A stretch of 64,000 nt of DNA from Kalmusia sp. IMI 367209 (taxonomy: Eukaryota; Ascomycota; Dothideomycetes; Pleosporales; Didymosphaeriaceae), in NCBI GenBank assembly GCA_027946365.1, contig JAPEUQ010000004.1, forward strand, positions 1,550,001-1,614,000. The letters run 5' to 3'. Positions within the stretch are counted from its first letter, which is position 1. Each line of letters starts with the position of its first letter. Below, in pieces: positions 37,514 through 42,625 of the stretch. The translations under genes were made by a program, and so were the position numbers. Under the pieces are notes generated by a model that was not told where the DNA came from, ran no database searches, and saw nothing but the letters and a program-made list of their open reading frames with translations.

Positions 37514-38831
37514 ATGGCCGCTAAAAGCCCCTCCATCCGCTCCCTATCGCGCTACCTCCTCCGTCCCCAGGCGCCCCTCCACCCTCGGTGTCGGCAACAA
37601 TGCCACGGCAAGCGGTACTCTTCAGCAGTAGCCGGAGCACGTCTCAATGGATCGGTAGAATATGACACTACGCCTCTCCTCTACCATACCTCCAAAGCAG
37701 CCCTCGCAAACCCCGAACTGCCTGAGGATGTCCGCAAAGGCCAGACCAAGCGCATCAATCTCTACCAAGCCGTCAATGAAGCCCTCCGCCATGCCCTTCA
37801 GACCGACGAAAGAGTACTCGTGTTTGGAGAGGACGTGCAGTTTGGTGGAGTCTTCAGGGCGACCATGAACCTTGCGACCGACTTTGGGACGGAACGCGTC
37901 TTCAACACGCCGCTGAGCGAGCAGGGACTGGTGGGGTTTGCCATTGGTGCTGCGAGCGAGGGTATGCGGCCAGTAGCAGAGATCCAATTTGCCGACTATG
38001 TCTACCCAGCATTTGACCAGATTGTGAACGAGGCGGCCAAGTACAGGTACATGTCTGGAGCGACAGGTGTGAATTGCGGCGGGTTGACGGTCCGGATGCC
38101 GACCGGTGTGGTAGGTCATGGCGGCCTGTAAGCATTTTCAGACCCCACAAATTTCGATATACTTATATGCATCGTAGCTATCATTCGCAGTCTCCTGAAG
38201 CGCTCTTCACTCATGTACCCGGTCTCCGCGTCGTCGTCCCACGTTCGCCCACCCAGGCCAAGGGTCTGTTGCTCTCGGCCATACGTGCAAACGATCCCGT
38301 CATTTTCATGGAACCCAAGATCCTCTACCGTGCAGCTATCGAACAAGTTCCAGTAGCTCCATTTTACCTGCCACTCGACAAAGCCGAAATATTAAAGCCA
38401 GGGAAAGACGTCACCATCGTCTCTTATGGAACTCCCTTATATACATGCCAAGCAGCGATAACCGCAGCGGAGAAAGATTTTGGATGCAGCGTTGAATTGA
38501 TTGATCTGAGAACAGTATACCCATGGGACAGGGAGACGGTACTTGAAAGTGTCAAGAAGACGGGACGAGCGATTGTGGTCCACGAGAGCATGCAGAACGC
38601 CGGTGTGGGTGCTGAGGTCGCGGCGACGATTCAAGAAAAGGCGTTTTTGAGACTAGAAGCGCCGGTCAAGAGGGTGACAGGATGGGCGACCTTCACAGGA
38701 TTAATGTTCGAGAATCTGATTATACCAGATGTGACGAGTGAGTCCATGTTTCCCCTGAAGCGGTCACCAGTGGGAGCTAATGATGATTACCAGGGGTGTA
38801 CGACGCAATAAAAAAGACACTAGACTACTAG
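37514..38831 (+). CDS. 2-oxoisovalerate (branched-chain 2-oxoacid) dehydrogenase E1 beta subunit
   Basis: Three exons, 37514-38127, 38178-38737 and 38794-38831, encode 403 residues. With E1 alpha and thiamine diphosphate this mitochondrial subunit decarboxylates the 2-oxoacids from Val, Leu and Ile. The first 45 residues are rich in Arg and Ser with no acidic residues, a typical matrix signal. Family segments include [76 protein letters not shown] and the final exon [12 protein letters not shown]. The small third exon follows a 56-base intron; reading through gives a false tail. Pyruvate dehydrogenase E1 beta is less likely because the sequence around [10 protein letters not shown] and the C-terminus match the branched-chain type. 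Confidence 0.95.
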
Positions 38832-39198
38832 ACGAAAAATTTTCTATATATGGATACTGCTGACTGAATTTCTCGCGATCAAGTCGTATTCGAAGATATT
38901 GTTGACTTCGTCGTAGCATAGATGCTCATACCGCCCGCTTATAAGAACAGCTCACAATACAATAGAATGAAGGAAGTAATACAATCAACCAAGATCTAAC
39001 AGGAACACCTTCAGCGGCCATGAATAAAGTGCACACGTTCTCTGACTGCCTATACTAGTGCGCTGCGGCTCCACATTACTACTTCCCGCAAAGTCTCCAC
39101 AGTGGAGCCACAAAGAAGCCCACCCCGAAAAAAGAAAAAAAAGAAAGCCTACAGCTCCCTCCCTGCCAACCAACACAAGTCAAAAAAGAATCCACTGC
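38832..39198. other. Intergenic spacer
   Basis: No gene is visible between the dehydrogenase gene and the tRNA-Phe gene. A short oligo-A rich stretch lies near 39130 to 39190, and the run of A at 39182-39187 could be the Pol III terminator (T run on the minus strand) of the tRNA. Confidence 0.5.
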
Positions 39199-39316
39199 TG
39201 TCGCTTGTGTGGATCGAACACACTACCTCCAGATGTCTCGTTCGATGCGAACCAAAGTTTGCCGCCCGAAGGCGGATTGCTTCAGTCTGGCGCTCTCCCA
39301 AATGAGCTAAAGCGAC
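39199..39316 (-). tRNA. tRNA-Phe(GAA) with 45-base intron
   Basis: The acceptor stem GTCGCTT pairs with AAGCGAC over seven bases. The D arm is GCTC...GAGC, the anticodon stem CCAGA/TCTGG, and the T arm GTGTG-TTCGATC-CACAC. The anticodon GAA follows the usual T33. The 45-base intron begins right after G37, the canonical site, and contains the hairpin CCGCC-TTCG-GGCGG. Mature length is 73 bases, typical for tRNA-Phe. Confidence 0.95.
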
Positions 39317-39730
39317 TTGTATCTACTTGATGACTAAGATTGGACTTGAAAAATATATATCCAGGGAGCAATTGAGCAAAGTGTCGCGTAGAGGAAGCGA
39401 GAAGACTTTGACCCGTGGGTCCAGAGGGGCCGGCGGTGTAAAGATTTTGGGCTACTAGGCGCAAACGGACCCGATCCTCAAGGCTTTGCACTACAGCCCG
39501 TAGTTCTAGGAGAGAACGGTAAGCGAAATATCGCACCGAACGTATAGCCCCTGAGCGTGTTCTATATCCACCGTTTCTCCCCGTCTTACGGAAGGTTTGT
39601 CATAAGGAACTCGTCCCCTTGCGCCCATTCTTAAACCCGTACGCTGTTTCCACATTGTTCGTTCCGCCATCGTTCTACGCCGTTTCTATAGACTTCTTGT
39701 ACGTCAGCGTCAGCTCATCGCGTCGATGAC
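39317..39730. other. Spacer between two tRNA genes
   Basis: No gene is visible. The two tRNA genes point away from each other. Confidence 0.5.
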
Positions 39731-39885
39731 GGCTCAATGGTCTAGTGGTATGATTGTCGCTTCGTAAGTCCTCCGCCACCACCAGCACTATGGAGTTATA
39801 CATCTAACAGCGCATAGGGGTATCTACGCCTGGATTCTAAGGATCTATATGTGACAGGCCCCGGGTTCGAATCCCGGTTGAGCCC
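39731..39885 (+). tRNA. tRNA-Pro, probable anticodon CGG split by a GT-AG segment plus a canonical intron
   Basis: The body is that of a eukaryotic tRNA-Pro: acceptor GGCTCAA/TTGAGCC with discriminator C, TGGTCTAGTGGTATGATT D arm, anticodon stem GTCGC/GTGAC, and T arm CCGGG-TTCGAAT-CCCGG. After T33-C34 comes GTAAGT (39764-39769). A branch-like ATCTAAC lies at 39802-39808, and CATAG ends at 39817. Removing these 54 bases leaves TTCGGG, after which a 29-base segment (39821-39849) sits exactly at the canonical position after G37. Removing both gives the loop TTCGGGT and a 72-base tRNA. Read as one 83-base intron instead, the anticodon would be CGT (Thr) on a Pro body. A tRNA gene is certain; the splicing model is inference. 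Confidence 0.85.
39764..39817 (+). other. Candidate spliceosome-type intron inside a tRNA gene
   Basis: The 54-base segment has a perfect GTAAGT donor, a CTAAC branch-like site 10 bases before the end of the segment, and a TAG acceptor. Length and signals match mRNA introns in this window. Its borders coincide with the point needed to restore a CGG anticodon. Confidence 0.6.
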
Positions 39886-40638
39886 AATCTTTTTTCAATC
39901 CATGTGTAGATGTGAAGTCAAACTGTAGAAACTGGTGATGCACGAGTCCCTTTTTGTCAGCGTCTCTCGAACATAGCCTTAGCTAGAAGCGAAATACAGC
40001 ACCTATGTACTCTTCACCCCATCCACCTTCCCAGCCACAGCAATATAAATCTAAACCGACACCAACCACTCCTTGCAGTCCTATCCGACCAACCCTGTCG
40101 TTCCCATCAAAACAGCCCCACCACCTCCCCAGAGTAAGCTTTCCATCCTTCCATCCACCCGCGCGCGTCGCGCCGTAGATCCAGCGAAATGTCGCACATA
40201 ATCACCATTTCTCCGAACCAAGGGCAAAGTATGCCTCTCGCCCCAAGTGGAGCGACGGTAGCACAGGGCCCCCCGAACCGGCATTTGACGCGCCTGCATC
40301 GGCCAAAGTGCCGATGCACCGCAATCTACGGATCTACCGGGATCCAGCAGCTTCCGCCCATATATGCATGACACCTAGGTGCGGGGAAGGCGATCGACCG
40401 CGATGCATGTGTGTTTGAAGATAGAGTGGATGGGGGGAGCGATTGTAGGCCACGAATCAAGCTTTGTGCTACCTTGGATAACGTGCTGCATGAGTGCGCC
40501 ACACGCCACACACAGCACGATTATCCACGGCGATGGTGAGGAGTTGGACTTTGTTGTTATTGTTGTGAAAATGAGTCGTTGAAACGACTGGGGGTATCAT
40601 TGCTATATAAAATGAATAGTCATATAGGACACGCTCTC
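39886..40638. other. Intergenic spacer downstream of tRNA-Pro
   Basis: A T-rich run (TCTTTTTTC) follows the tRNA at 39888-39896 and can serve as a Pol III terminator. The remainder has no supported gene. Confidence 0.5.
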
Positions 40639-42625
40639 TCATGGCCACCGGCTCCCTCTTCCATCATCGGCCCAACCCCCATCCTCCCATCTCTCGTCGA
40701 TTACCCTGCTTTTGCCGCCACCTATTATTGTCGTTTTTACTCTCGGCATGAGCGGCGTGTCGCTCCGACGATTGACACTCCCCTTGTCAAAGTCGAAGTC
40801 AAAGTCGCCTAGCTCACGCTGTAGCTGCTTTTCGACGCGTTGCCGGACTTCCTCGGCGCGAGCGTCAGCTTCGAAGAGGAAGGCCAGCTCTTCGAGGGTG
40901 CGACCGTAGGTTTCGGGGAACATGAAGTACTGGCGAGGAGGGTCAGTGAGGCATACAGGAAGGAGAGATGGGAGAGACGGACGATGAAGACGATCTCGAA
41001 AGCAAGCCAGCAGCAGTAGGTAATGAGCCAGCGCCAGTTGATGCGGTCGAGACCAATGGGGTTTACGAATGTTGTGAAGAAGCCGGCCCCTCGGCCGAAG
41101 AATTGGAAGATTGTGATGCCTCTTGCGCGTTGAGCGAAGGGGAACAATTCCACCAGAAAAGCTGCTTCTAGTTAGCAGATGCTCCATGAATTCCTTATGC
41201 TTCATGGGGACAGAAGACATACTGTATGTCAGAGCGTTATAGCCAATGTTGTAGCACGGCTGATACGCAAAAATAAAGAAAATCGTGATCTTGGCCGCCA
41301 CTGCACTCTGTTTCTCGAAGAACTGCTGCATCGCTACCGTCCATCCCACGTAACAGCACAGCAGCGCCGTCGCACATGTCAAATACATGACTCTTCTTGG
41401 GAACCGTCTCACTAACAGACTGATACCCACTGCGTTGATCAAATTCCAGCCATTCAATCCCACGTTCAGCTTTCCTTTGAAGTTCGGATCTTTGTACCCT
41501 ATGAGTTGCAGGAGGTCCGAAAGATAATATGAAATGAGCGTGTTGCCAGACCATTGGGTAAACAAGCCGAGGAACGAGCCGACCAGGACGCGCTTGCGCA
41601 TGCCGGGCGTAGACACCATGTCGAACCATGAGCGTTGCGAATGCGCGAGTTCAAGGCGGATTGTGGATTCGATTTGGGCCATTTCGGCGAGGGCGAAGTC
41701 GGACTGGGAATTGCCTTCGGCGTGATAATGGACGAGGATGCGGTAGGCTTCGTCGCGTTTGTCCTTGGAGATGAGGAAACGTGGGGATTCGGGAATGAAA
41801 CTATGTTCTGTTAGCTTATGTCATGTACTGAATTGCTTTATTGTGAAAAGAGATTGGTATCGTACAAGATGAAGATGATTTGTAGCAGTGACGGCCCTGC
41901 CTGCAATAGACTAGGTATTCTCCACGCCCAATCCGAATTCAGGTGTTGTGTGCCAAAGGATACGCCAGCCGCAATTAGTGCGCCAACGAAGTAAAGAGCG
42001 TTGAAAAGCGAGGTCATAATGGGTCGTTCTTTCGGGTATGCAAGTTCACCCATGAGAGATGAGCCAGCGATAATACAGAAGGGAATTCCGAAACCGAGGA
42101 TCCAGCGCGCTATGACGTACATTGCAGCTACAATCAATTAGCACAACCCGGTGAAGATGGTTGGTGTTGGGCACGTACCGCTGATAGAGAAGGCTTGAAT
42201 GAGGGAGCCAACTACCATTATCCAGCTCCCAAAGAAGATGGCCCATCGTCTTCCAAATGTATCATTGACGTAAGGTACGAAAGGTAGTGCACATATTGCA
42301 CCGAGATTATATGCTGCCGAGATGATGCCAAGCAGAGGTCCGGAGGGATGGCTGAAGTCTGGTATTGTCAGTCTATCAATCTTTTATCATCATTACTGAA
42401 AGTTTGCTCACAGGCTTGCCATGCTGGAGATATCTGGACAGTGTTGATCATCTGTGAGTCGAATCCACTCGTCATCTCGATACCGATACAACACGGCAAC
42501 AACAACGCGTAAAGCACTCTCAGATTCCTCTTCTGATACCACGGCACCCGATCCTGTTGTACGATCCGCGTCAATACCGGATCCGCTTGGTGTGCCTTCG
42601 CCGCATTGCCTATGGGCGGCGCCAT
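40639..42625 (-). CDS. Major facilitator superfamily sugar transporter (lactose permease-like)
   Basis: Six exons, 42625-42412, 42358-42179, 42127-41866, 41800-41223, 41164-40983 and 40929-40639, give 568 residues. The sugar-porter signatures are NDTFGRRWAIFFGSWIMV in loop 2-3, PESPRFLISKDKRDEAYRIL after helix 6, LFPFAQRARGITIFQFFGRG after helix 10 and PETYGRTLEELAFLFE at the end of the membrane core. About twelve hydrophobic helices are evident. This subfamily takes up disaccharides or hexoses with protons across the plasma membrane. The fifth intron needs a weak GTCCGT donor; the other four have ordinary donors, and every junction keeps the frame. The C-terminal tail is charged and carries FDFDFDKGS. 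The true substrate cannot be told from sequence. Confidence 0.9.

Follow-up and report, generated by a model that had tools for sequence, protein, structure and literature searches.

The window analysed here is a 64,000-nt stretch of contig JAPEUQ010000004.1 from Kalmusia sp. IMI 367209 (Pleosporales, Didymosphaeriaceae). Positions 39731-39885 of its plus strand hold a tRNA-Pro(CGG) gene with two inserts, whose neighbour is an ordinary tRNA-Phe gene with a 37/38 intron on the minus strand (39199-39316). The parts of the tRNA-Pro(CGG) gene and its 3' flank are listed below.

39731..39763, plus strand: exon 1, comprising the acceptor 5' strand, D-arm, anticodon stem 5' strand, U33 and C34; identical to the sister gene on contig C2
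39738..39749, plus strand: A box TGGTCTAGTGGT, matching the consensus at 11/12 positions
39764..39817, plus strand: 54-nt GT-AG intron that separates anticodon base 34 from base 35, absent from the C2 sister
39764..39769, plus strand: 5' splice site GTAAGT of the 54-nt segment, by sequence
39804..39808, plus strand: branch-like site CTAAC, by sequence, with its A at 39807, 10 nt before the intron end
39815..39817, plus strand: 3' splice site TAG, by sequence (segment end CATAG)
39818..39820, plus strand: 3-nt middle exon GGG (G35, G36, G37), contiguous with exon 1 in the C2 sister
39821..39849, plus strand: 29-nt canonical tRNA intron at 37/38; the corresponding intron of the C2 sister measures 30 nt
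39850..39885, plus strand: exon 3, comprising base 38, the anticodon stem 3' strand, T-arm, acceptor 3' strand and discriminator C, as placed by the Rfam match and exon joining
39864..39874, plus strand: B box GGTTCGAATCC, matching the consensus at 11/11 positions
39890..39895, plus strand: T6 run, resembling a Pol III terminator

The gene thus carries the signals of a Pol III gene (A box 11/12, B box 11/11, T6), and the 54-nt segment can be placed in only two equivalent junction registers. When both segments were cut out, ARAGORN called a 72-nt tRNA-Pro(CGG), in agreement with the conserved loop, anticodon CGG and 72-base product that the sequence-only reading had derived from a two-part removal. 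The unspliced gene, with one anticodon-loop intron allowed, was called tRNA-Thr(CGT) with an 83-nt intron, as that reading had also foreseen for a single long excision, which places a Thr anticodon on a Pro body. Its central claim, that a tRNA-Pro gene contains a 54-nt GT-AG intron besides an ordinary tRNA intron, was borne out: the coordinates were exact, a sister gene lacks the segment, and 14 further segments were found in 12 other genes. Standard searches missed the locus. Neither ARAGORN without introns nor Rfam with fast filters returned any gene or match across the whole window, and a permissive Rfam scan of 38500-41000 recovered RF00005 at 39731-39885 (41.9 bits; gathering threshold 29), the match covering the gene with a gap of 86 nt placed in its anticodon loop.

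A BLAST search of the own genome (42.8 Mb, 30 contigs) revealed one sister of the window gene, at C2:56510-56611. Its exons are identical to those of the window gene (72/72), and it has the 37/38 intron only, the 54-nt segment being absent. The canonical introns of the two genes (29 nt in the window, 30 nt on C2) agree in 22/30 alignment columns and the flanks in 25/71 and 24/64 columns. Given identical exons beside differing flanks and canonical introns, neither gene is a recent copy of the other, and each has preserved its body intact. The window gene had been considered as a possible sole decoder of CCG, which the second, normal tRNA-Pro(CGG) gene on C2 contradicts. A normal second gene, with the window copy unexpressed and drifting in relatives, had been named as grounds for rejecting the interpretation; such a gene does exist, but the exons of the window copy show no drift against it. 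Given the segment-free sister, the window gene could be dispensable. As a candidate introner, a multi-copy mobile intron, the 54-nt segment was rejected: it had one match in the genome, itself.

The trait is genome-wide and not confined to one odd locus. We found 15 GT-AG segments, which are spread over 13 tRNA genes representing eight isotypes and occupy ten non-canonical sites; they lie after exon base 13, 18, 24, 31, 33, 50, 51, 55 or 56, and none at 37/38. Two tRNA-His(GTG) genes were exposed by an A-box pattern search for tRNA-Pro; their T-arm is split at 53/54 by segments of 71 and 69 nt of the form GTAGGT..TACTGAC..TAACAG. The remaining genes came from low-scoring tRNA family matches or from a pattern combining B box and terminator, as given here.

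C11:717554-717688: tRNA-Ser(AGA), 54 nt in the variable arm (low-scoring family match)
C26: tRNA-Lys(TTT), 51 nt in the T-loop (low-scoring family match)
C25:2183426-2183607: tRNA-Leu(CAG), one segment in the D-loop and another in the anticodon stem (low-scoring family match)
Four genes: tRNA-Asp(GTC), a segment at 52/53 in the T-stem plus a 37/38 intron (B-box-plus-terminator pattern)
C1 and C3: tRNA-Ala(CGC), one gene each, a segment at 25/26 plus a 37/38 intron (B-box-plus-terminator pattern)
C28: tRNA-Glu(TTC), segments at 13/14 and in the T-stem plus a 37/38 intron (B-box-plus-terminator pattern)

Once the exons were joined, the ARAGORN call agreed with the isotype and anticodon expected in every gene (13/13). 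In tRNA-Leu(CAG) the pairing of CTAGC with GCTAG is possible only after loss of both segments. Canonical 37/38 introns are themselves common in this genome and occur also in Ala, Asp, Glu and Gln genes. The B-box-plus-terminator pattern gave 31 + 70 matches against 4 + 3 for the control; the 100 listed of these 101 matches represent 55 distinct places, long T-runs giving nested matches. C18:94077 is also among these places, while C1:3872659 and C14:226222 were judged background and left out. No tRNA was called by ARAGORN at ten B-box places, no new tRNA gene was found at 15 new places matching A-box patterns, and yeast tRNA bodies used as BLAST queries gave no match. Viral and prokaryote collections were also empty of matches, an uninformative result. 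Altogether about 84 nuclear tRNA genes were seen, by a hand tally in which some isotypes were assigned by eye; this census is incomplete, and elongator Met, Val-AAC/CAC and Leu-TAG were not found in it, the genome searches scoring best candidates only.

Interrupted genes behaved poorly in automated calling elsewhere too. With introns allowed, ARAGORN made no call for nine unspliced genes (two His, Ser-AGA C11, Lys-TTT, four Asp and Glu-TTC C28), named Leu-CAG as Cys and named one Ala-CGC as Val. tRNA genes interrupted by GT-AG segments can therefore escape tRNA finders or be misnamed by them.

All 15 segments have GT..AG ends, 14/15 start with GTNNGT, in line with the fungal consensus, and 15/15 have CTRA[CT] with its A 9-12 nt before the segment end. 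Their lengths are 49, 50, 50, 51 (six times), 52, 53, 54, 54, 69 and 71 nt. The six-base starts are GTACGT (6), GTAAGT (4), GTAGGT (2), GTTAGT (1), GTGAGT (1) and GTAAGA (1), and the ends are TAG (6), AAG (5) and CAG (4). Weak signals are the start GTAAGA in Ala-CGC on C1, the AAAAG ends in Asp, the AAG end of one Glu segment, and the branch motifs CTGAT/CTAAT in Ala-CGC on C3 and one Glu segment. For comparison, 14 coding donors in the window, chosen by GTRNGT and reading frame with the branch ignored, gave introns of 45-83 nt by first acceptor; in this small and noisy sample, 6/14 have a close branch motif (CTRAY, A 9-13 nt from the acceptor). Three coding introns derived from predicted proteins measure 50, 53 and 84 nt; the close motif is present in 1/3, one has no CTRAY and one has it only far from the end. 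The tRNA segments fit the branch motif better than this noisy coding-intron sample does.

A B box lies at the 3' border of the T-arm segments in Asp and Glu, where it matches the consensus at 11/11 positions, and in His, where it does so at 10/11. Ser-AGA has a 9/11 B box both with and without its segment, and in Lys-TTT the only candidate is TGTTCGAATAC inside the segment, whose 9/11 agreement may well be chance. The A box is split only in Glu on C28, where the match falls from 10/12 to 9/12. This pattern suggests that the insertions that survived may be the promoter-sparing ones.

We then considered whether the interrupted genes are needed. Among the complete nuclear copies found, interruption affects Asp 4/4, His 2/2, Ala-CGC 2/2, Lys-TTT 1/1 and Leu-CAG 1/1; BLAST with uninterrupted bodies, scored for best candidates only, gave no uninterrupted complete nuclear copy for these five. 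Since every complete copy found of five anticodons is interrupted, the genes are unlikely to be dead, and a pseudogene reading of the whole set was ruled out on the same ground. Only a single anticodon was found for Asp and a single one for His, and within the census their codons therefore depend on interrupted genes. Pro-CGG (C2), Ser-AGA (C3 and C12) and Glu-TTC do have uninterrupted copies; of the two Glu-TTC genes one is interrupted and the other (C27:1207458) has no GT-AG introns; the segment-free sisters provide an empty site for Pro-CGG (C2) and Ser-AGA. The Ser-AGA body on C11 is 95% identical to the C12 copy, and the Glu-TTC body on C28 is clearly unlike the one on C27; judged by sequence, both could be drifting.

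Paralogous genes for His, Asp and Ala-CGC have identical exons (71/71, 72/72), whereas their segments differ. Segment identity is 57/71 columns (80%) for His and 41-47 of 51 for the six Asp pairs; the Ala-CGC pair agrees in 24/53 columns (45%; shuffled 31%), with GTAAG, CTRAY and TAG kept in both. Such a contrast between exons and segments would fit introns that are selected for their splice signals only. The Asp genes on C23 and C26 share their 3' flank (56/60 columns) and hence represent a recent duplication, which counts against fully independent histories of the copies.

Several further sequences were observed. At C23:298925-298955 and C26:487047-487077 lie the 3' 31 nt of tRNA-Asp, segment-free, each following GCAGTATCTGTTTTTATACG and situated 0.3-0.7 kb downstream of a full tRNA-Asp gene, with no 5' half recognised; they may be remnants of a gene that lacked the segment, or may have arisen by copying of spliced RNA. 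C29:314465-314506 is a truncated tRNA-Ser(AGA) of 42 nt from the 5' part, for which no 3' half was seen by eye in the next 0.4 kb. A tRNA-like gene at C23:1747440-1748180 contains a long hairpin (arms of about 34 nt, by eye), and part of its motif recurs in the long intron of a neighbouring tRNA-Trp gene. Finally, an AT-rich repeat family whose members share GT[AG]TAGTGGTTACTA is present at C4:14946, C4:1295542, C12:1908814 and C25:2507462, where no tRNA was called.

mRNA-type introns of U6 snRNA in fungi have reportedly been described by Tani and Ohshima in 1989 and by Canzler et al. in 2016. In the Kalmusia genome RF00026 marked four U6 places, of which C25:1482098 and C23:1905492 are uninterrupted. 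The gene starting at C28:670233 (minus strand) has a 77-nt first part, a 50-nt GTGAGT..ACTGAC..CGCAG intron and then TCAAAGAGAAGC. A partial U6 lies at C28:665708-665780, with an unrecognisable 5' part and an intact 3' end and T-run. In fission yeast, mRNA-type introns in U6, a Pol III RNA, are established, and reverse splicing near the catalytic nucleotides is given as their likely origin (PMC10484740). The fungal U6 introns resemble the segments described here in being short GT-AG introns with a branch site in a small structured Pol III RNA, but U6 belongs to the spliceosome and tRNA does not, and in Kalmusia ten sites in eight isotypes are affected. Some of the tRNA genes, moreover, carry two GT-AG introns, or one or two together with a canonical one. 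According to a 2017 article, frequent interruption by an intron is known for no small structured RNAs other than U3 and U6; the U3 snoRNA introns of fungi are likewise mRNA-type and lie in a non-coding RNA (PMC5832005), but U3 is not a tRNA and does not combine them with endonuclease introns. U6 is thus the known precedent for spliceosomal introns in a small Pol III RNA, and for tRNA our search of titles and abstract openings in open PMC found no report.

Among tRNA introns proper, the canonical nuclear type, cut by the Sen endonuclease at 37/38, is matched by the second segment of the window gene. The GT-AG segments differ from it in their positions, in being longer in most cases and in their mRNA-type signals. 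The GT-AG segments might instead be unusual tRNA introns, cut by the tRNA splicing endonuclease at bulge-helix-bulge (BHB) motifs as in archaea and the red alga C. merolae. Eukaryotic tRNA genes with several non-canonical introns do exist: according to PMC4090602, C. merolae, nucleomorphs and Crenarchaeota have several introns per tRNA gene outside 37/38, as observed here, the review pointing to BHB recognition in C. merolae and archaea and calling the mechanism in nucleomorphs unknown. The His segments are moreover 80% alike between copies, the predicted fold of the His precursor has a hairpin across the 5' border, and the Ala-CGC segments and one Leu segment score 7/10 for BHB. The segments differ from the introns so described in having mRNA-type signals. 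A strict BHB score at their borders averaged 4.80 against 4.85 of 10 for shuffled segments (n = 15), which is mild evidence against endonuclease removal from a weak test, as canonical introns reached 6.67 against 6.08 (n = 9). Endonuclease cleavage also leaves the GT..AG ends and near-fixed branch distance (15/15) and the U6 intron unexplained, and we regard it as quite improbable.

For the window gene only, one may suppose a defective gene from which the endonuclease takes 83 nt, leaving a Pro body with CGT, or whose precursor is degraded, the C2 gene serving in its place. The segment-free C2 sister and the Thr(CGT) call by ARAGORN speak for this; we nevertheless consider it very unlikely, as the exons have stayed identical to those on C2 despite the differing canonical introns and flanks, the terminator and boxes are intact, and the same signals occur where the search for a complete copy free of segments came up empty. 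A CGT product would also leave the GT-AG and branch signals and the twelve other genes unexplained. Lastly, random insertions in tRNA genes might have happened to start with GT and end with AG. Both dinucleotides are common, segment borders were picked by eye with the tRNA consensus and GT-AG in mind, and paralogous genes are not independent, so that the fair count is ten sites and not 15. In addition, the motif is by itself no rarity in long DNA (GTNNGT..CTRAC..AG of 45-75 nt: 14 matches in the window against 8.35 expected, maximum 18 in 40 trials), and the weight therefore rests on its coincidence with exact tRNA borders. A shuffled insert, however, shows GT...CTRAY...AG with the A 8-13 nt from the end at p = 7e-5 for one register (200,000 shuffles), ten distinct sites are involved, only 1-4 registers are possible per segment, and the exons rejoin to a tRNA in every gene. 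Chance has, in our view, next to no probability.

The 54-nt segment is thus very probably a spliceosomal intron of the U2 type that interrupts a Pol III tRNA gene; with the window gene included, at least 13 tRNA genes of this fungus would need such an extra processing step. A spliceosome-type intron together with a normal tRNA intron is supported as the best account of the window locus, and that reading is strengthened by the 14 further segments, the segment-free sisters and the wholly interrupted isotypes; the similar intron in one U6 gene of the same genome lends it support. What can be read directly from the genome are the segments with their splice signals, the restored tRNAs and, for two sister pairs, the empty sites; from these we infer Pol III transcription, removal by the spliceosome and its precedence over the endonuclease. 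Directed by A and B boxes that are intact, Pol III would transcribe the precursor as far as the T6 run. GTAAGT would be recognised by the spliceosome, which would form a lariat at A39807 and cleave after the TAG ending at 39817, thereby cutting out 39764-39817; joining of C34 to G35 would rebuild the CGG anticodon loop. In budding yeast the tRNA endonuclease sits on mitochondria, and if the same applies here, the spliceosome would act first, in the nucleus, followed by export and by removal of the 29-nt 37/38 intron through tRNA endonuclease and ligase. Action of the endonuclease first on the window precursor would produce a CGT anticodon on a Pro body.

By the usual division of labour, nuclear tRNA introns are left to endonuclease and ligase, and mRNA-type introns occur in transcripts made by Pol II, the exception among Pol III products being U6. 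Essential decoders that need both machines in a fixed order would, if our interpretation is true, break that division. One could then test by what means the spliceosome locates the introns of short precursors that have no cap, how RNAs other than mRNA acquire spliceosomal introns, and whether the loss of T- and D-arm introns is checked at export. The spliceosome is probably obligatory for tRNA processing in Kalmusia, and perhaps in its clade. The introns would have come into tRNA genes repeatedly, for instance through reverse splicing into tRNA and subsequent reverse transcription, a route proposed for U6. There would then be no tRNA-Asp, tRNA-His or tRNA-Lys(UUU) without the spliceosome, and translation would be coupled directly to the capacity for pre-mRNA splicing.
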